DNA of 64,000 nt from Desulfarculus baarsii DSM 2075 (lineage in GTDB: Bacteria > Desulfobacterota > Desulfarculia > Desulfarculales > Desulfarculaceae): contig NC_014365.1 of the NCBI RefSeq assembly GCF_000143965.1, forward strand, positions 1,577,501-1,641,500, read 5' to 3'. This document shows positions 53,957-63,453 of this stretch, one piece after another. The notes under the pieces are model-generated. The model saw nothing but the letters and a program-made list of their open reading frames with translations, searched no databases and was not told the origin of the DNA. The number at the start of each line of letters is the position of its first letter. The first letter of the stretch is position 1. A program made the position numbers and the translations under genes.

Positions 53957-54652
53957 TCAGCGCGCCTCGACCTCACGGAAGCTGAACGTCGCGAGGCTGG
54001 TGCTGCGGCCGTGGATGACCACCGTTTGCCGCGCCTGGGCGTCATTGGCCTCGGCCGTCAAGACGTGCTCGCCCACGGGCAGATCATCCAGCGTCAGCGG
54101 CGTGACGCCCACGGCCCGCCCGTCCAGGGAGATCTTGGCGGGCAGGTTGGACTCCACCGTCAGCGAGCCGTAGCCGATGGCCTGGGCCTGGGCCTGGGCG
54201 TCGGCCAGATATTGCCGGGCAAAGGGATGCCCCGGCAGAACTTCCGCCACGTTCTGGAAGATCTTCGCCGCCCCGGCGTAGTCGCCTTGATTGAACAGCG
54301 TCACCCCCTCGACGAAATCCAGGCTGGCCTTTTGATCCCGCGCGATCCGCGCGACCTGGGCCGCGTAGCCTTGACGCCTGGCCGGAAGCTGGGCCAGGCG
54401 TTGTTGAGCCACCGGCCAAGCGGGCCGCGCGCGCAGGGCCTCTTGCCACAGCTGCTCGGCCTTGTCGAAATGCCCACCCGCCGCGGCCAACTCGCCCTGG
54501 TCCAGCAGGGCCAGGGCTTGGGCCTGGGCCGCCTGGCCTGGTTCGGGCTCGGCCAAGGCCGGGCCAGCCAAGGCCAGCGCAACGGCCATGGCCAGAGCCA
54601 GGGCCGCCAACCACCTCATCACGGCGTTTGCGCCGCCATGCTTGCGATTCAT
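53957..54652 (-). CDS. Periplasmic TPR and PEGA-domain protein
   Basis: A 231-residue protein with a signal peptide (residues about 12-33, cleavage ALA-EP). The middle holds two or three TPR-like hairpins (LLDQGELAAAGGHFDKAEQLW, FVEGVTLFNQGDYAGAAKIFQ). The C-terminal 70 residues are a PEGA domain (GSLTVESNLPAKISLDGRAV then GVTPLTLDDLPVGEHVLTA), a small beta domain common in envelope proteins that often accompanies surface or phosphorylation-linked systems. ATG 54652 is chosen over the GTG one codon upstream because of its spacing from GGAGG. It may belong to the locus of Pro-rich proteins just upstream (112 nt gap). Confidence 0.8.
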   Translation of the reverse strand: MNRKHGGANAVMRWLAALALAMAVALALAGPALAEPEPGQAAQAQALALLDQGELAAAGGHFDKAEQLWQEALRARPAWPVAQQRLAQLPARRQGYAAQVARIARDQKASLDFVEGVTLFNQGDYAGAAKIFQNVAEVLPGHPFARQYLADAQAQAQAIGYGSLTVESNLPAKISLDGRAVGVTPLTLDDLPVGEHVLTAEANDAQARQTVVIHGRSTSLATFSFREVEAR

Positions 54653-54763
54653 CACGCGCCTCCATGTTTCACGGGTTGTCGTGGTCCGCTGATTTCAGGC
54701 TAGCGCGATAATGTTCGGCAATCAATAGGTGATTTCTGAAAGGAAGCGAAACAACGCCGTGGT

Positions 54764-55942
54764 TCAACGCCCGTGGGTCGCCTCGACGACGCTCATCTGG
54801 CCGTCGCTCCAGAACAGCAGCGCCGTCAGCGGTCGGCCGCCGGCCAAGGCGCCGTTGTCCTGCACGAAAAGCTCCACGCGGCAGCCGCCGGAACCCGGCT
54901 CCAGGCGCAGCATGCGGCCGGGCGTTTGATCCGGCTGGTCGGCCCGGCGCACGGCCATGGGCCAGACGCCTTCGGCCGCGACCGTCGACCACCAGCCGTC
55001 ACGGCCGCCGGCCACTTGCAGGTCGATGCGCAACAACACCCGGTCTCCGGGCGGCAGATCGAGCGACAGCCGGCTGTCGGCCGCGCCATCCGGGGTGGCG
55101 GCCGGCGTGTAAGCTCGGCCGACCAGGTCGACGTCGCCGGCGATCCGCTCCAGCCGACACGTCGCGCCCGCCGCGCCCGGCGTCGGTGGAAGCGGGGTCG
55201 TTGGTTGGGCGTGGGGCGCGGGCACTGGGGCCGGCGCGTTGGGCAAGGGCGTCGGCGCGGGTTGGGTCGTGGGCGCGGCGACTGGCGGAGCGGCTGGGTT
55301 CGTGGACGGCCGAGGCTCGTCGCCCAGGGCGGCCAGGCGTTGACGGGCCTTTGCCGCGGCCGGCGAATTCGCGCCGCCGTCCCGCGCGACGATTTTTTGA
55401 TACCAGGCCTTGGCCTGGGCCGTGCGGCCGGTGTGTTCCAGGGCCTGGGCGTAGCTCAGGCCGTCCTGAAAGAGCCGGCTGTCGGGTAGTTGATCCATGG
55501 GGCCAAGGTCTTTGGCGAAGTAGGCGGCCACCGGCTCCCACTGGCCCGTCTTTTCATAGGCCTCGATCAATTGTCGTCGAGCCATGGGCGCGTCGGCTGC
55601 CCGGGGATAGCGGGCCAGGTATTTTTCGAAGAGCAGGGCGATGGCCGTGTAGTCGGGCAGGCCCAGGTAGCGCTTGTAGACCTCGGCCAAGCGCCAATAG
55701 GCCTCGGGCGCGTGGGTTGAGTCTGGGCACTGCTCGATGATCGCCTCCAAGAGACGCCGTTGGTTGGCGTAGTCCTGGGGCGGGGTCTGGCCCAATTCCA
55801 GCAGCAACTGGGCGGCGCGCCGATCCTGGGCGTCGTTGCCGGCGGCCATGGCCGGCAACGCAACGGCCAGAGCGCAGAGCAAGGCCACGACCAGCCATCC
55901 CGCCCAGCGTCGCGCCGGGGCGGGCGTCGCGAGGGCCCCCAC
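54764..55942 (-). CDS. Exported TPR protein with Pro-rich linker and shared C-terminal domain
   Basis: A 392-residue secreted or periplasmic protein. A membrane or signal helix (GWLVVALLCALAVALPAMA, residues about 14-32) precedes TPR-like repeats in the style of YbgF and BamD (about 45-190: YWRLAEVYKRYLGLPDYTAIAL, SYAQALEHTGRTAQAKAWYQK). After a Pro/Ala/Thr-rich linker (about 200-265) comes a C-terminal domain (about 275-392) whose motifs DLVGR, WWSTVAAEGVWP, FVQDNG and WSDGQ recur in the upstream neighbour. The start is GTG 55942, with TGGAG 6 nt upstream and only 2 nt after the neighbour's stop. I do not recognise the C-terminal domain. Coupled expression with 55945-56820 is likely. Confidence 0.72.
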   Translation of the reverse strand: MGALATPAPARRWAGWLVVALLCALAVALPAMAAGNDAQDRRAAQLLLELGQTPPQDYANQRRLLEAIIEQCPDSTHAPEAYWRLAEVYKRYLGLPDYTAIALLFEKYLARYPRAADAPMARRQLIEAYEKTGQWEPVAAYFAKDLGPMDQLPDSRLFQDGLSYAQALEHTGRTAQAKAWYQKIVARDGGANSPAAAKARQRLAALGDEPRPSTNPAAPPVAAPTTQPAPTPLPNAPAPVPAPHAQPTTPLPPTPGAAGATCRLERIAGDVDLVGRAYTPAATPDGAADSRLSLDLPPGDRVLLRIDLQVAGGRDGWWSTVAAEGVWPMAVRRADQPDQTPGRMLRLEPGSGGCRVELFVQDNGALAGGRPLTALLFWSDGQMSVVEATHGR

Positions 55943-55944
55943 TT

Positions 55945-56820
55945 CTACTCCACCGGCAGGATCAAAACCTGGCCATCGGCAAAGCCGATCACCAACTCCA
56001 GTTTGGCGTTGCCGCTGGCGATGGAGTTGTCGTCCTGCACCAGCACGTCGGCGACAAGCTCGCCCTGGCCCAAAGGCAGGTTGAGCGCGCCGTCGGGTTG
56101 GTTGAGTGGCTTGCCTTTTTGCGCCAGCACGAGCAGCCACGCGCCGTTGCCTGCGGTGGTGTCCCAGGTTGGGGCGGGCGCGCCCTGGGCGCGTAAGGCC
56201 ATGGCGTTGATGGTGCGGCCGGGCGCGCGCAGGCGCAGGGCAAAGTGCGCCTCCGGCGAGCCGTCGCCTTTGAGGGCTTCGCCGCGGCCGACCAGGTCGT
56301 AGAAGCTCCTGAGGCGCTTGAGCTTGACGCCGCCGCCGATGGCCGCCGGTTCCGGCTGGCTGGGGGGGCTGGGCTGAACCGTGGGCGCGGCCGGCTGCGC
56401 CGGTTGTGGATCGATGGCCGGCGGCTGTGAGCCGACGTCGGATGTGGCCGGCACGGAGCTGGGCGCGCTGGGCGCTGTGGCCGGCTGCGCCGGTTGTGGA
56501 TCGATGGCTGGCGGCTGTGAGCCGACGTCGGATGTGGCCGGCGCGGAGCTGGGCGCGCTGGGTGTCGTGGCCGGCTGCGCCGGTTGTGGATCGATGGCTG
56601 GCGGTTGTGAGCCGACGTCGGATGTGGCCGGGGCGGAGCTGGGCGCGCTGGGCGTCGTGGCCGGTTGCGTCGGTTGTGGATCGGCGGTGGTCGGTTGCGA
56701 ATCGCCCGTGGTGGCGGTGTCCCAAACCTTGCCCATGAAACCGGCTTGGGCCGGTCCGGCGGCCAGGGCCAGCAACAGCGCGATGATCAGCGTTTTGGCG
56801 GCAAACTTGCGGCAGTGCAT
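55945..56820 (-). CDS. Secreted Pro-rich repeat protein with the same C-terminal domain
   Basis: A 291-residue protein. Signal peptide (residues 1-26, cleavage AQA-GF). Residues about 40-165 contain three and a third copies of a 30-residue Pro/Ala/Ser/Thr-rich repeat with core SQPPAIDPQPAQPAT, encoded by an exact 90-bp tandem array. The C-terminal 115 residues (DLVGRGEALKGDG, TWDTTAGNGAWLLVL, VLVQDDN, FADGQVLILP) align by eye with the end of the 54764-55942 product. The ATG at 56820 has GGAGAT upstream; a start at 56892 is possible but gives no better signal peptide. A predicted promoter at 56891-56920 serves it. Confidence 0.72.
   Translation of the reverse strand: MHCRKFAAKTLIIALLLALAAGPAQAGFMGKVWDTATTGDSQPTTADPQPTQPATTPSAPSSAPATSDVGSQPPAIDPQPAQPATTPSAPSSAPATSDVGSQPPAIDPQPAQPATAPSAPSSVPATSDVGSQPPAIDPQPAQPAAPTVQPSPPSQPEPAAIGGGVKLKRLRSFYDLVGRGEALKGDGSPEAHFALRLRAPGRTINAMALRAQGAPAPTWDTTAGNGAWLLVLAQKGKPLNQPDGALNLPLGQGELVADVLVQDDNSIASGNAKLELVIGFADGQVLILPVE
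56389..56690. repeat. 90-bp tandem repeat, about 3.3 copies, in frame
   Basis: The block GGTTGTGGATCGATGG recurs at 56402, 56492, 56582 and, diverged, 56672: a period of exactly 90 bp. Copies differ by only a few substitutions. The array lies inside the secreted-protein gene and adds 30 residues per unit, so copy number can change without breaking the frame. Confidence 0.92.
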
Positions 56821-56890: not shown

Positions 56891-56920
56891 ATTGTACACG
56901 CAATCGACCGCTCTTGTGAA
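56891..56920 (-). promoter_or_regulatory. Predicted leftward promoter of the Pro-rich protein unit
   Basis: On the minus strand TTCACA (56915-56920) and TACAAT (56891-56896) are 18 nt apart. The leader before ATG 56820 would be about 64 nt. It lies back-to-back with the rightward promoter at 56946-56973. Confidence 0.5.
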
Positions 56921-56945: not shown

Positions 56946-56973
56946 TTTACAAGCCTTGCCCGTTTGCTATGAT
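56946..56973 (+). promoter_or_regulatory. Predicted rightward promoter of the VWA-TagTSR-like unit
   Basis: TTTACA (56946-56951) and TATGAT (56968-56973) are 16 nt apart; each matches consensus at 5 of 6 positions. It gives a leader of about 65 nt before the GTG at 57045. Confidence 0.6.
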
Positions 56974-57044: not shown

Positions 57045-59204
57045 GTGAAGCGCGCGTTGCTAGTAGTTGTCATGGCGCTCATCGCCGTGGCCATGGCCGT
57101 GCCGGCCACGGCCGCCGAGGGCCGTCAACCGGTCAAGATCGATGGCAAAAAGCATTTGCCCCTGCGGGTGCTGGCCCGGCCTTTTTCGCACATCTACAAA
57201 ACCCAGGACGTGGCCGGCGGCACGGCGCAAGAAAACGTGCCGTCTTTTCAGCCGTTTTATGTCTACACTCGGCCCTCCGAACAGGACCGGGCCGCCCAGC
57301 GCGGTTGGTACGAGGTCGGCTCCGACGCCCGGGGCGGGGTGATCGGCTGGATGCAGGCCAAGGATGTCTTCGAGTGGAAGCAGGCCATGTGCTTGGCCTA
57401 CACCCACCCCGAGGGCCGCAAACCCGTTTTGATGTTCGCCGAGGAGCCGCCCTTGGCCAAGCTGGTGGCCGCGCCGCCGGCCCAGCGCGACCCGGCGGTG
57501 GAGGCCCTCTACAAGGCCATCGCCGACAAGAACATCCCGGTGGATTTTCCGGTGAAGTCGGTGGAGCCGCAAAAAGCGGTGGATATCTCCAAGCAGTTTT
57601 ATTTGCTGCCCATCCTCGATTTCAAGGTCGTTGATTTCGCCGGCCGTGAAGGCCGCGTGGTCAAGCTGGCCGCCGTGACCGCCGGCGGCCCCGAGGCCCG
57701 TCAGGCCAGCGACATCCGCAGCAACACCGCCTACGTCGAGGAAGCCACCCAGGAGTCGACCCAGGTCGCGGCCGACACGCTGAAAAATCTGGTCTTCGAC
57801 GTTGTCTTCGTCATGGACACCACCGTGAGCATGCGACCCAACATCGAGGCCACCCTGCGGGTGATCCGGCAGGTGGCGGCCAATCTGGGCAGCGATCCCG
57901 AGGCGGCCCAGGGCGTGCGTTTCGGCTTCTGGGGCTATCGCGACTCGGCCGAGGACATCCCCGGCATCGAATACACCACCAAAAACTACACCCCGACCCT
58001 GCAAACGGCCGCCGAGTTCGAAAACACCCTGGCCGGCGTCCAGGTCACCGAAATCGACTCGGTGGACTACCCGGAGGATGTCTTCAGCGGCGTCGACGAC
58101 GCCATGCGCAAGACGGCCTGGGACGATAACGCGATCAAATTCATGGTGTTGGTCGGCGATGCGCCCGGCCATGAACTGGGCCACAAATGGAACCTCTCGG
58201 GCCAGGACGAAAATACCCTGCGCTCCATCGCCGATGACGGTTCGTTCTACCTCCTGGCCCTGCACGTGAAAAACCCCAAGGCCACCAAACACAACCCCCG
58301 GGCCGAACAACAATATGGCGTGCTGGGCCTCAACAAGGGTTCGGGCGGCCAGACCACCTACACCGCGGTGGATTCCCAAGACGCCGCGGCCTATGGCGTG
58401 GCCGCCGAGTCGCTGACCCAGGCCATCGTCTCGGTGGTGCGCGCGGCCAAGCAGGGCCAGGTGGCCCCGCAACTGACCGGCGGCGGCCAAGGCGGTGAGC
58501 TGGCCGACTTGGGCCAGGCTCCGGCGGCGCCTGCGGCTCAAACCCCCGCCCAGGCGCCTGCTCAAACTCCGCCGCCCGCCTCGCCGCCAGCCGGCGGCGA
58601 ACTGGCCGACCTGGGGCCGGAGCACCAAAAGCTGGCCGACGACGTGCAAGAGACGACCAACCGCGCCCTGCGCGCGGCCCTGGTGGAGTGGATCGGCCAA
58701 CAAACCGGCGCGCAGGCCCCCCGCGATATCGAGGCCTGGGCCGTGGATAAAGACTTGCTCAATCCGGCCGTTTCGTCGATGGAAGTGCGCCTTTTGATCA
58801 ACAAGCAGCAACTCAGCTCGCTCAAGCAGGTGCTGACCGAGGTCATGGGGGCGGGCCGCCTGGGCCAGATCGGTGGCGACGATTTCTTCACCGCCCTGCA
58901 ATCGACCGCCGCGGCCGCCGCCCGCGACCCCAACCAGATCAAAAACGCCCGCACCATGGCCGAGACCGGCCTGGTGCCCGAGTTTCTGTTGGGTCTGCCC
59001 TACCAGAGCCGCCTGATGGCCATGACCAACGAGCTGTGGCAGAGCTGGGGCCCCGACGAGCAGGACGAGTTCCTCAATGAACTGGAGGCCCGCATCAGCG
59101 CCTATCAGGCCATCCACGACGGGCCCGACGGCTGGATCAAGCTCAACCCCGGCGATGACGCCGGTGAGATGGTCTATCCCATCAGCCTGGACCTGCTGCC
59201 CTAG
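57045..59204 (+). CDS. Exported VWA-domain protein resembling the PpkA periplasmic sensor region
   Basis: A 719-residue protein with a signal peptide (ALLVVVMALIAVAMAVPATAA). Residues about 35-150 form an SH3-like beta domain (LPLRVLARPFSHIYKT, GWYEVGSDARGGVIGWMQAKDVFEWKQAM) and residues about 245-450 a von Willebrand A domain with the metal site DTTVS (FVMDTTVSM) and FGFWGYRDSAEDIPGIEY. A Pro/Ala linker flanked by two GGELADLG copies (about 482-525) precedes a helical C-terminal domain. The SH3-plus-VWA order is that of the periplasmic half of T6SS kinase PpkA, but no kinase domain is present. GTG 57045 has GGGAGG 8 nt upstream. It heads the rightward unit. Confidence 0.82.
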   Translation: MKRALLVVVMALIAVAMAVPATAAEGRQPVKIDGKKHLPLRVLARPFSHIYKTQDVAGGTAQENVPSFQPFYVYTRPSEQDRAAQRGWYEVGSDARGGVIGWMQAKDVFEWKQAMCLAYTHPEGRKPVLMFAEEPPLAKLVAAPPAQRDPAVEALYKAIADKNIPVDFPVKSVEPQKAVDISKQFYLLPILDFKVVDFAGREGRVVKLAAVTAGGPEARQASDIRSNTAYVEEATQESTQVAADTLKNLVFDVVFVMDTTVSMRPNIEATLRVIRQVAANLGSDPEAAQGVRFGFWGYRDSAEDIPGIEYTTKNYTPTLQTAAEFENTLAGVQVTEIDSVDYPEDVFSGVDDAMRKTAWDDNAIKFMVLVGDAPGHELGHKWNLSGQDENTLRSIADDGSFYLLALHVKNPKATKHNPRAEQQYGVLGLNKGSGGQTTYTAVDSQDAAAYGVAAESLTQAIVSVVRAAKQGQVAPQLTGGGQGGELADLGQAPAAPAAQTPAQAPAQTPPPASPPAGGELADLGPEHQKLADDVQETTNRALRAALVEWIGQQTGAQAPRDIEAWAVDKDLLNPAVSSMEVRLLINKQQLSSLKQVLTEVMGAGRLGQIGGDDFFTALQSTAAAAARDPNQIKNARTMAETGLVPEFLLGLPYQSRLMAMTNELWQSWGPDEQDEFLNELEARISAYQAIHDGPDGWIKLNPGDDAGEMVYPISLDLLP

Positions 59205-59223
59205 GGCGGCAGGAGCGACGCCG

Positions 59224-59985
59224 ATGGGCGCGCGCGAAGCAACGGCCGGCCGAGGGCTGGCCTTCCAACTGCGCGGGGTGAGCAAGCGCCGCGAAAAGGG
59301 CGGCGTGGCTTTCGACTTGGTCGTTCCCGAACTGGAGGTGGCCGCCGGCGAGTTTATCGCCATTGTCGGGCCCAGCGGCTGCGGCAAGTCCACGCTGCTG
59401 GACTTGCTGGGCCTGGTGCTGCGGCCGACGGCGGCCCACCAGTTCGGCGTGTGGGATCAAAACGCCGCGCGACCCGGCTGGCGCGACGTGACGACCCTTT
59501 CGCCGCGGGGCCTGGCCGCCGTCCGCCGCGCCAGCATCGGCTATGTCTTGCAGACGGGCGGTCTTTTGCCTTTCTTGTCGGTGGGCGAAAACATCGCCCT
59601 GACCAGGCGGCTGGGCGGCCTGCCGGTGGCGGCCGAGGATATCCTGGCCCTGGCCGGCCGCTTGGGCATCGTCGAACAATTGGGCAAAAAGCCGGCCCAT
59701 CTCTCCGGCGGCCAACGCCAGCGGGCGGCCATCGCCCGGGCCCTGGCCCACGGCCCTTCGATCATCCTGGCCGACGAGCCCACCGCCGCCGTGGACCGCC
59801 GCGCCGCCGTGGAGATCCGCGATCAGTTCAAATCATTGGCCGGCAAGCTGGGCGCGGCCGTGCTGATGGTCACCCACGACCGCGAACTGGTCGCGCCGGT
59901 GGCCGACCGCGCCTTCACCTTTGAACTGGAGCGGCCGGCCGCCGAACTGACCGTGGCCACGGTGGTGGAGGGCGGCCTTGGCTAG
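59224..59985 (+). CDS. ABC transporter ATP-binding protein (LolD/TagT-like)
   Basis: A 253-residue ATPase of the MacB/LolD class. Walker A GPSGCGKST (about 49-57), signature LSGGQRQRAAIARAL and Walker B IILADEPTAAVD with catalytic Glu are intact, and the H-loop is VTHDRELV. It would energise the FtsX-type permease encoded by the overlapping next gene. In the Pseudomonas T6SS locus, TagT holds this role with TagS, TagR and TagQ as partners; here the same order of protein types follows. AGGAGC lies 7 nt before the ATG; upstream frame is a shadow of the VWA gene. Confidence 0.9.
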   Translation: MGAREATAGRGLAFQLRGVSKRREKGGVAFDLVVPELEVAAGEFIAIVGPSGCGKSTLLDLLGLVLRPTAAHQFGVWDQNAARPGWRDVTTLSPRGLAAVRRASIGYVLQTGGLLPFLSVGENIALTRRLGGLPVAAEDILALAGRLGIVEQLGKKPAHLSGGQRQRAAIARALAHGPSIILADEPTAAVDRRAAVEIRDQFKSLAGKLGAAVLMVTHDRELVAPVADRAFTFELERPAAELTVATVVEGGLG

Positions 59986-61084
59986 GGGGCGGCGCGGCGA
60001 TGGCTTGCCCTTTGGCCTGGTGTTGCGCCTGGCCCGGGCCGATTTGGCCCACGAGTGGGTGCTGAGCCTGTGTTTGGTCTTGGCCGTGGCCGCGGTGCTT
60101 TCGCCGCTGATGCTGTTGTTCGGCCTGAAGTTCGGGGCCATCGAGACCATGCGCTCGCGTCTGGTGCAAGACCCGCGCAACCGCGAAGTGCGTCCCATGA
60201 CCAGCCAGACCTTCTCCCGCCAGTGGCTGCGCGAGTTGGCCGGTCGGGCCGACGTGGCCTTTGTCGTGCCGGGCATCCGTCAGATCGCGGCCACCCTGGA
60301 GGCCTCGCTGGGCGCCGGGCCCAAACTGACGCTGGACGTGCTGCCCACCGCGCCGGGCGACCCGCTCCTTGTGGAAAACGGCGCGCCCGCGCCGGGCCCG
60401 GGCCAGTGCGTGCTGAGTTTTTTGGCCGCCGAATCATTGGGTGCCAGGGTCGGCGACGCGCTTGAGGTCAAGGTCAAGCGCCTGCGCGGCTCGCGCTTCG
60501 AAAGCGGCGAGTTGCGCTTGCGGGTGGCGGGCGTGCTGGATCAGCGGGCCTCGGCCCTCAAGGCGGTCTACGCGCCGTTGGAGTTGCTGGAGGCCATCGA
60601 AAATTACAAAGACGGCCTGGCCGTGCCCGAACTGGGCTGGCCGGGCGACGCGCCCGAGGCTTATCCGGTCTTTGACGGCGTGGTGGTGGCGCTGGGCCGT
60701 GAGCTGGGCAAGCTCGACGAACTGCGCCTGATCAACGGTACGGGCTTTGGCAAGCTGACGCGCCCGAGCCCGGCCGAACTGGCCCGGCTGACCGGCTATC
60801 GGGTCGATCCGGCCTGGCGGGTCTATCTGGTGGAGGCGGCCAAAAGACCGGTGGGCCTGGAGAGCGTGTTGGCCGTCAAGGAGCGCCTGCGTGGCACGGG
60901 CGCTTTTCTGCTGCCCTGGACGCGGGCCGTGGCGGCCAGGCTGCTGGCGGCCGACGGTTCCGAGGCCGGATCGCTGAACGTGTTGGCCCTGGGCCCGTTG
61001 GCCGAGGGGGCCGGCCGCCCACGGGCCTCGAACCAGCGCCGCCCTGGCCGCCGGGCCAGGGAATGGAGCCCAAACCCACGCTGA
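59978..61084 (+). CDS. FtsX-type permease (TagS-like), N-terminal part of a frameshifted gene
   Basis: The first 345 or so residues form the N-terminal membrane helix (WVLSLCLVLAVAAVLSPLMLL) and the large periplasmic domain of an FtsX/MacB-type permease. The last 25 residues (from RPRASNQRR on) are out of frame and have the basic Arg/Pro-rich composition of a shadow frame. The TTG start at 59978 overlaps the ATPase stop, with GGAGGG 5 nt upstream. The missing C-terminal helices are encoded in the next frame at 61063-61839. Without them the product could not form a working permease. Confidence 0.8.
   Translation: MARGRRGDGLPFGLVLRLARADLAHEWVLSLCLVLAVAAVLSPLMLLFGLKFGAIETMRSRLVQDPRNREVRPMTSQTFSRQWLRELAGRADVAFVVPGIRQIAATLEASLGAGPKLTLDVLPTAPGDPLLVENGAPAPGPGQCVLSFLAAESLGARVGDALEVKVKRLRGSRFESGELRLRVAGVLDQRASALKAVYAPLELLEAIENYKDGLAVPELGWPGDAPEAYPVFDGVVVALGRELGKLDELRLINGTGFGKLTRPSPAELARLTGYRVDPAWRVYLVEAAKRPVGLESVLAVKERLRGTGAFLLPWTRAVAARLLAADGSEAGSLNVLALGPLAEGAGRPRASNQRRPGRRAREWSPNPR
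61004..61012 (+). other. Probable -1 frameshift junction within the TagS-like permease
   Basis: At GAG GGG GCC (61004-61012) lies a run of five G. Sliding back one base, or one extra G, changes the reading to the frame that continues without stop into the second part (P-T-G-L-E-P-A-P-P-W-P-P-G-Q-G-M). Both halves are needed for the permease fold. Possible causes: a sequencing or assembly error in the homopolymer, a true mutation, or programmed slippage. Confidence 0.7.
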
Positions 61085-61839
61085 TGTTGCCGGCCGGCGC
61101 GAGCCCGCCGCCGGGCCAGGCCTATCTGGAACTGCGCCACGAACGCCGGGTTTTGCGTTTTCCCGTGAGCGTGGCCAAGGAGCGCGCCCCCGGTGAGGCG
61201 GCCTTCGCGCCGCCGCGGTTGGCCGGGGTGTTGCGCCTTTTCGCCCAGCGCGAGCTGACCCACGATCGATCGTCGGGCCGCTTTTTGCTGGCGCGACGCG
61301 GCTACGCCTCGTTTCGGCTCTACGCCGCCACCATCGACGACGTGGAGGGCCTGCGCCGTCATTTCGAGGCCCAAGGCCTCAGCGTGCACACCGAGGCCCA
61401 GCGCATCCGCGACGTGACCCAACTCGACGGCTACCTCACGCTGATTTTCTGGCTGGTGGCCTTGGTGGGCCTGATGGGCGGGGCGGCGGCGCTGACGGCC
61501 AGCCTGTGGGCCTCGGTGGAGCGCAAGCAAAAGGAGCTTGGCGTGCTGCGACTGCTGGGCATGCCCACCGGGGCGATGGTGCGTTTTCCGCTCTATCAGG
61601 GGCTGATCATCGCCGTTTGCGGCTTTGTGACGGCCGTGGGCGTATTCCAGGCCCTGGCTTGGGTCATCAACAGCCTTTTCCAGGCCCACTTACAATCGGC
61701 CGAGCGGCTCTGCCGGCTGCCCGCCGATCATCTGTTGGCCACGCTGGGCGGGGTGATCGCGCTGGCGACGCTGGCCAGCGCGGCGGCGGCCTGGCGAGTG
61801 ACGCGCATCGACCCGGCCGAGGCCCTGCGCGACGAATGA
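61063..61839 (+). CDS. FtsX-type permease (TagS-like), C-terminal part of a frameshifted gene
   Basis: This 258-residue frame holds the end of the periplasmic domain and the last three membrane helices of an FtsX/MacB permease: YLTLIFWLVALVGLMGGAAAL, LYQGLIIAVCGFVTAVGVFQAL and LLATLGGVIALATLASAAAAW. The coupling sequence ERKQKELGVLRLLGMPTG between helices 2 and 3 is the family mark for contact with the ATPase. The ATG at 61063 has no ribosome site of its own, and the frame is open upstream to the G5 run at 61006-61010, so it is best read as the continuation of 59978-61084. A TagR-like gene follows after 12 nt. Confidence 0.8.
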   Translation: MEPKPTLMLPAGASPPPGQAYLELRHERRVLRFPVSVAKERAPGEAAFAPPRLAGVLRLFAQRELTHDRSSGRFLLARRGYASFRLYAATIDDVEGLRRHFEAQGLSVHTEAQRIRDVTQLDGYLTLIFWLVALVGLMGGAAALTASLWASVERKQKELGVLRLLGMPTGAMVRFPLYQGLIIAVCGFVTAVGVFQALAWVINSLFQAHLQSAERLCRLPADHLLATLGGVIALATLASAAAAWRVTRIDPAEALRDE

Positions 61840-61851
61840 CAGGAGCTTTCC

Positions 61852-63453
61852 ATGGCTAAGTTTCGGATTGCCTTGCTGCTATTGCTTTCGTTGGCCACGG
61901 CCGCGCCCGCGCTGTCCCAGCAAGCCGACCCCTACAACCCCCAACCGGCCGCTGGCGACCTGACGCTACCCATGCCCGGCGGGGTTAGCGTGGCCTTCCG
62001 GCCGATATTCATCGGCGAGGGCGATTCGCCCTTTGCCCAGCGCAAGTTCAACATGGGCGACCCCCAGGGCGGCTTCAAGGAAAACCCCACCAGCGTCTCG
62101 GTGGGCGGCGCCTTTTTGGCCAAGAACAAATCCGGCGGCGAGGACTGGCTGTTTTATCTGGCCAAATACGAACTGACCGAGGGCCAATATTACGCCGTGA
62201 TGGGCCTGCCCCAGGGCGCGGACAAGGCCCTTTTGCACAGCCGCAAACCCATGGCCGGGCTTAGTTGGTTCCAGGCCAACGAGTTTGTCGATCGTTACAA
62301 TCAGTGGTTGTTCGCCAACGCCAAGGACAAGCTGCCGGCCCAGGGCGGCCAGCCGGGCTATGTCCGCCTGCCCAGCGAGGCCGAGTGGGAGTTTGCCGCC
62401 CGGGGAGGCGCGGCGGTGTCATCCGATGTTTTCGACCGCCGTCACCCTTACGACAAGCCCCTGGAGCAGTGCGAGTGGTTCGCCGGGGCCAAGTCCTCGC
62501 ACAACGTGGTCAAGGACGTGGGGTTGCTGGCCCCCAACCCCCTGGGCCTGCACGACATGCTGGGCAACGTCTGCGAGATGACCCACGGGCTCTATCAGGT
62601 GGAGTACTATCAGGGCCGCAACGGCGGGTTCACGGCCAGGGGCGGCCACTTTCTGACCGACGAGAAAAGCCTGCGTTCGGCCATGCGCGCCGAGCAGCCG
62701 TTTTACCTGGCTGGCGGCGGCCAGATCAAGGCCAACGCCAAGCCGACCATGGGCCTGCGCCTGGCCTTGGGCGGGGTGGTCTTTGCCGATCGCAACGCCG
62801 TCCGCCAGATGGCCGAGGCCTGGGAAGGCTATCGAGCCGGCAAGGGCGCGGCGCTGCCGGCGGCGGTTTCGGTCAGTCCCACCAGCGCCCAGGCCGGCGT
62901 CAAGGGCCGTGACGCCATGGAGCACCTGGCCCGGCTGAAAAAAGAGTTGGCCGGCCAGGCCCTTTCGCCGGGGGCGGCCCAGCAGTTGGGCTTGTTGGAG
63001 GCGTCGCTGGGCAATATCGAATTCGTGCTCAAGCAGGCCGATGAAGACTCGGCCTACGCCTGGGCCAAGATCGCCGCTGAGCGCGGATTTTTTCTGCAGC
63101 GCGAACTGGCCAAGTTGCCGACGATCCAGCGGCTGATGACCATTGCCCAGGACGGCGGGCGCACGGCCATGGTCGAGAAATACAAAGAGCGCCTGAACGA
63201 GTTCCAGGCCAACATCGACGAGGCCATGTCGACTTATTCCGAGTCGTTTCGCCAGCTAGACAAGATCAGCCCCCCGGCCGTGGACGCCGGCTTCACCAAG
63301 TACGCCAAGTTTTTGCTGGAGCGCCAGGCCGCTGCTCAACTCAGTTCGCTGAAGGTCGTGCGTGAGCAATACGCCGCCTTCAACAAGGAGAAACGGGCCA
63401 ACCCCGAGTTGTGGCGCAAGCAGTTCGAGGCCCTTGGTCAGGGGGCGCAATAG
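61852..63453 (+). CDS. Exported formylglycine-generating-enzyme-fold protein (TagR-like) with coiled C-terminus
   Basis: A 533-residue protein with a signal peptide (IALLLLLSLATAAPALS, cleavage before QQ). Residues about 45-305 form an FGE-sulfatase (SUMF1) domain: YELTEGQYYAVMGLP, GYVRLPSEAEWEFAARGG, NPLGLHDMLGNVCEMT and TARGGHFLTDEKSLRSAMR are its conserved blocks. The Cys pair of active formylglycine-generating enzymes is not seen at its usual place, so it is probably a binding rather than catalytic domain, as in TagR. Residues about 330-533 are helical. AGGAGC precedes the ATG. In Pseudomonas, TagR is periplasmic and promotes PpkA activation. Confidence 0.85.
   Translation: MAKFRIALLLLLSLATAAPALSQQADPYNPQPAAGDLTLPMPGGVSVAFRPIFIGEGDSPFAQRKFNMGDPQGGFKENPTSVSVGGAFLAKNKSGGEDWLFYLAKYELTEGQYYAVMGLPQGADKALLHSRKPMAGLSWFQANEFVDRYNQWLFANAKDKLPAQGGQPGYVRLPSEAEWEFAARGGAAVSSDVFDRRHPYDKPLEQCEWFAGAKSSHNVVKDVGLLAPNPLGLHDMLGNVCEMTHGLYQVEYYQGRNGGFTARGGHFLTDEKSLRSAMRAEQPFYLAGGGQIKANAKPTMGLRLALGGVVFADRNAVRQMAEAWEGYRAGKGAALPAAVSVSPTSAQAGVKGRDAMEHLARLKKELAGQALSPGAAQQLGLLEASLGNIEFVLKQADEDSAYAWAKIAAERGFFLQRELAKLPTIQRLMTIAQDGGRTAMVEKYKERLNEFQANIDEAMSTYSESFRQLDKISPPAVDAGFTKYAKFLLERQAAAQLSSLKVVREQYAAFNKEKRANPELWRKQFEALGQGAQ

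Follow-up and report, generated by a model that had tools for sequence, protein, structure and literature searches.

In Pseudomonas aeruginosa, assembly of the type VI secretion system (T6SS) is controlled by TagQRST and PpkA (PMC6657622), and these components of the H1-T6SS resemble an operon of Desulfarculus baarsii DSM 2075 that also encodes ABC ATPase, FtsX permease, SUMF1 and VWA proteins. Two genes adjacent to this operon and divergent from it, here called A and B, are not among the TagQRST-PpkA parts. Their products end in a shared domain for which the nearest described modules are Ig-like (the bacterial Ig-like and FN3 classes; compared by fold only): as in those classes, it is a predicted all-beta sandwich of ~125 residues that stands in tandem or at a terminus of apparently exported proteins, mixed with cohesin/dockerin-like modules. 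All positions below are those of the window, by which we mean the whole 64-kb stretch of D. baarsii DNA that was analysed.

55945..56820, minus strand: gene B (P0002, 291 aa), with a putative signal peptide, Pro/Ala-rich repeats and the C-terminal shared domain (translation)
54764..55942, minus strand: gene A (P0001, 392 aa, GTG start), with a putative signal peptide, TPR-like region, Pro-rich linker and the C-terminal shared domain (translation)
55948..56331, minus strand: shared domain copy B, ~128 aa (profile and BLAST matches)
54767..55165, minus strand: shared domain copy A, ~133 aa, the more diverged copy (profile and BLAST matches; long branch)
56389..56683, minus strand: 90-bp tandem repeat in B, 3.3 copies, 95% matches (Tandem Repeats Finder)
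53957..54655, minus strand: gene for an exported TPR + PEGA protein downstream of A (Pfam PEGA 28.0 bits, TPR_2 34.2 bits)
56891..56920, minus strand: sigma-70-like promoter match ahead of B-A (consensus scan 10/12; no evidence of function)
56946..56973, plus strand: sigma-70-like promoter match ahead of the divergent VWA operon (consensus scan 10/12; no evidence of function)

B is the first gene and A the second, with 2 bases from the stop codon of B to the GTG start of A and a GGAG upstream of that start. Judged by eye, both products begin with signal-peptide-like hydrophobic segments. Their N-terminal parts differ, as the earlier note on this DNA had stated: that of A shows weak TPR similarity (TPR_14 22.8 bits, just under the cut-off of 23.5) and a YbgF/CpoB-like match (E 3e-7), with the CpoB/YbgF equivalog level not reached (tol_pal_ybgF 31.1 bits, cut-off 90.1); that of B consists of Pro-rich repeats, its 90-bp tandem repeat encoding the Pro/Ala-rich stretch. 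Given that the TPR + PEGA gene lies on the same strand only 108 bp past A, B-A-PEGA may be a three-gene unit with the PEGA gene as a possible third member. The promoter-like sites found by consensus scan in the intergenic region between B and the VWA gene face opposite ways.

Because a first BLASTP alignment of A with B extended through Pro-rich sequence, the domains were compared alone. The isolated tails aligned with an E of 3e-13 and 28% identity across 126 residues, and their Smith-Waterman score of 136 lay far outside that of 5000 shuffles (mean 30.5, sd 5.6, max 78; z ~19). The motifs DLVGR, W-T, VQD and DGQ follow in the same order in both, as had been noticed by eye. A profile built only from copies in other genomes detected B (2.4e-19) and A (1.3e-7), so that the profile check suggested at the outset gave a significant result for each tail; it detected no frame in the 64-kb window besides these two. 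The rows of this leave-window-out profile were collected partly via the window copies, which makes it not fully independent, and many of them also find one another. No Pfam, NCBIfam or PHROGs model scored over its cut-off on the shared domain, whether in A, in B or in the multi-copy relatives. The A and B tails are thus homologous and constitute one domain that lies outside the libraries used, and both the sharing and the unrecognised status proposed in the earlier note are borne out.

Outside the window, a profile search in which ~11 candidates were scored per genome found the domain in at least 8 of 395 sampled Desulfobacterota genomes, or 9 at a looser cut-off. A fuller search across the host's class covered 63 genomes and placed it in 3, one by a weak partial match, and added the genome G300 and a weak match in G708; with so few candidates scored per genome and these extra matches, more divergent copies may have been missed. 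Scanning contigs with a narrower alignment recovered four loci only. Early low-score matches (L006, L007, L009 and L010) proved to be unrelated genes or wrong frames and were dropped.

The arrangements in which the domain is found vary widely. Four genomes of one family encode a ~630-aa exported protein with four tandem copies, one of these genomes having two such genes; they lie beside genes for a purine phosphorylase and an adenine deaminase and beside further conserved genes, with no VWA or SUMF1 gene in the neighbourhood. Three genomes have a single copy, joined in at least two to a second small domain. In the only other carrier within the host's family, G300, an exported 569-aa protein has an N-terminal copy that is 39% identical to that of B (E 1e-28); this copy is the nearest to B, and its gene neighbourhood is unrelated. 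Two further carriers belong to the Chloroflexota: in a protein from a Dehalococcoidia MAG (L058:3-3566), six copies precede a cohesin domain (E 9e-14) and an end that resembles a dockerin but scores below the cut-off (E 0.014), and in another genome a multi-pass membrane protein has a copy (E 4e-9) in what is apparently one of its extracytoplasmic loops. On the evidence of these sequences, the domain is a reusable module of proteins that look exported or membrane-bound, present in a few Desulfobacterota and in Chloroflexota.

Several features of these proteins were recorded in passing. The architecture of L058:3-3566 is scaffoldin-like. The second small domain (W-x-x-NDGGxYYxRQ...W-x-GES) has no Pfam match and is present in two genomes (L036:1105-1404 and L005:1330-2184), in either order relative to the shared domain. 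The G708 protein (L083:1-1800) has an Ala/Pro-rich linker and, C-terminal to it, a degenerate copy (E 5e-6), a layout like that of B. A phage, plasmid or viral origin was also considered and rejected: the six-copy relative had no match in phage or plasmid records, and neither B's domain nor one canonical copy had a match in viral contigs.

The earlier note had described the tails as looking like a duplicated domain. In two trees the A and B domains were sisters, with support of 94/92 and 92/88, just below the usual threshold; the alternative grouping of B with the G300 copy was not rejected (p-AU 0.105), and the end branch of copy A is very long (2.2-2.4 against a median of 0.35). Local duplication is the simplest reading and that of the favoured tree, plausible although unproven.

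The structure prediction for which the earlier note had called gave an all-beta sandwich. The AlphaFold model of a canonical copy has 9 strands and no helix (pLDDT 93.2, pTM 0.88), and that of B's own domain is likewise an all-beta sandwich (pLDDT 80.4). The predicted model belongs to the Ig-like beta-sandwich fold class, and the Foldseek and VIA lists hold mostly sandwiches. Foldseek returned no match with E below 0.001, and fold comparison against the PDB and BFVD gave no close match; the best VIA-align score of the canonical model, Z 8.1, is level with several unrelated sandwiches. Since the matches to solved structures are weak and tied, the fold yields no function. In a PDB sequence search, a partial match to a SUMO2 chain (4bkg, E 0.002) was taken as chance because SUMO is not a beta-sandwich.

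Conservation across the family centres on near-invariant D, V, D, W and N residues, in D-x-V-[GN], [DN]-G-x-x-D, W-x-T, L-N and D-[G]. In the canonical model the second strand is preceded by a long loop that holds an acidic cluster, and the conserved D-x-V-G ... D/N-G-x-x-D residues suggest a structural metal site of the calcium type. In copy A, which is highly divergent, the near-invariant Asn is missing, and this copy may thus have another role or a purely structural one.

In our view the tail common to A and B is a mobile module of Ig-like beta-sandwich type, extracytoplasmic, ~125 residues long and probably duplicated locally, which two exported envelope proteins would use to bind a protein or glycan; we put the probability of this reading at roughly 0.65. 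Export of A and B would most likely be by Sec. A would carry the sandwich on its TPR (CpoB/YbgF-like) region and B on its long Pro/Ala-rich spacer, these spacers keeping it away from an anchor or partner; the exposed stalks envisaged in the earlier note are plausible. By analogy with other Ig-like modules borne on stalks, the sandwich may then bind an envelope protein or glycan.

The domain could instead be a structural spacer or folding cap that ends extended exported proteins and has no ligand of its own. Tandem arrays, which are frequent for spacer domains, would fit such a role, as would the strong divergence among copies seen in the end branches. However, in A and B alike the domain stands once, at the end of the protein and behind a disordered spacer, where one would usually expect a binding head and not a stalk unit, and the near-invariant polar D, D and N residues together with the Trp point to a conserved site, which a structural metal site would explain equally well. 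We regard a role as spacer or cap as unlikely, though worth keeping in mind. Still less likely is a more elaborate form of the binding-module reading, in which the domain would be a calcium-dependent ligand-binding family outside Pfam/NCBIfam that was spread by domain shuffling between Desulfobacterota and Chloroflexota, and in which A and B would be the two arms of a single envelope complex, recognising the same ligand at the surface.

Given the position of A and B beside the VWA operon, they had also been proposed as dedicated partners of a PpkA/Tag-like locus. The operon (57045-63453) encodes a VWA protein, an ABC ATPase, FtsX (in two frames) and SUMF1, with Pfam matches to FGE-sulfatase (3.6e-25), ABC_tran (1.2e-24) and FtsX (2.4e-16), and it is kept in several relatives. 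In having a TagR-like SUMF1 protein together with TagS/TagT-like FtsX and ABC subunits it agrees with the name that it was given. However, its VWA protein (57045-59204) has a weak VWA match only and no kinase domain match in Pfam, and TssC/VipB (PF05943), the single T6SS marker searched, is absent from the host genome (99.98% complete), the E. coli control having matched. As both this sheath marker and the kinase domain are missing, the likeness of the locus to Tag extends to some parts only, and 'PpkA/Tag' is a resemblance and no more than that. The FtsX-type permease (59978-61839) is encoded here by two overlapping frames (59978-61084 and 61063-61839) where the relatives L022, L023 and L026 have one ORF of ~620-630 aa, which may reflect a frameshift, a sequencing error or a genuine split. 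The 11-base sequence gccgggccagg is repeated in this region, at ~61050 and ~61110.

Co-occurrence of the domain with TagR/VWA genes, a check that had been suggested with the proposal, was examined by reciprocal genome searches. Homologues of the VWA protein were found in six relatives besides the host, and the shared domain was found in none of these six when whole genomes were searched with the host as positive control; conversely, no VWA homologue was found in nine domain-bearing genomes (one of which, G042, is counted on a weak partial domain match) or in a tenth, G300 (82% complete). The domain occurs unlinked to VWA/Tag-like loci, an outcome that the earlier note had itself named as telling against its proposal, and the claimed linkage therefore fails; on these searches we reject a linkage of the domain to the VWA/TagR-like locus, and we see no sign of a dedicated role for them with the neighbouring operon. 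A narrower form of the proposal would have A and B as envelope partners of this one operon, for instance as sensor subunits passing on a surface signal, in a pairing particular to one species. Their divergent adjacency with an intergenic region in common, and the TagT/TagS/TagR-type ABC, FtsX and SUMF1 parts of the operon, would be in keeping with this; but the operon's VWA protein and the domain each occur without the other in the genomes just described, the nearest copy (that of G300) lies in an unrelated neighbourhood and the host lacks the T6SS sheath gene, and we consider such a partnership highly doubtful.

The idea that the likeness of A and B is one of low-complexity composition (Pro/Ala/Gly-rich, high-GC) and not of descent could appeal to the first BLASTP alignment having crossed Pro-rich stretches, but it is refuted by the domain-only BLASTP, the shuffles and the other-genome profile, and we give it practically no credence.

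Through its alignment and profile, a domain missed by current family libraries is now defined, and a set of 'hypothetical' exported proteins of anaerobic bacteria, the cohesin-bearing multi-domain protein included, can be recognised by one common module; a tempting but unsupported tie to the regulation of type VI secretion is removed from the host genome. Among solved structures, the best VIA match was to the small beta subunits DgpB/DfgB of C-glycoside deglycosidases (7drd, 7bvr and 7dre; Z 8.1, rmsd 3.0, 106 residues), at only 10% identity and with unrelated chains close behind (Z 7.9, 7.7 and 7.6); archaellum FlaF/FlaG, PCuA-like metallochaperones and GH2 sandwich domains tie with these subunits, and we take the resemblance to reflect a common arrangement more probably than kinship. 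The shared domain differs from the Ig-like modules with which we began in having no Pfam/NCBIfam match and a signature of its own, D-x-V-G ... [DN]-G-x-x-D ... W-x-T ... L-N ... D-G. The family is thus most likely new and its kind familiar: a binding or spacer module of generic Ig-like type, carried by exported proteins.
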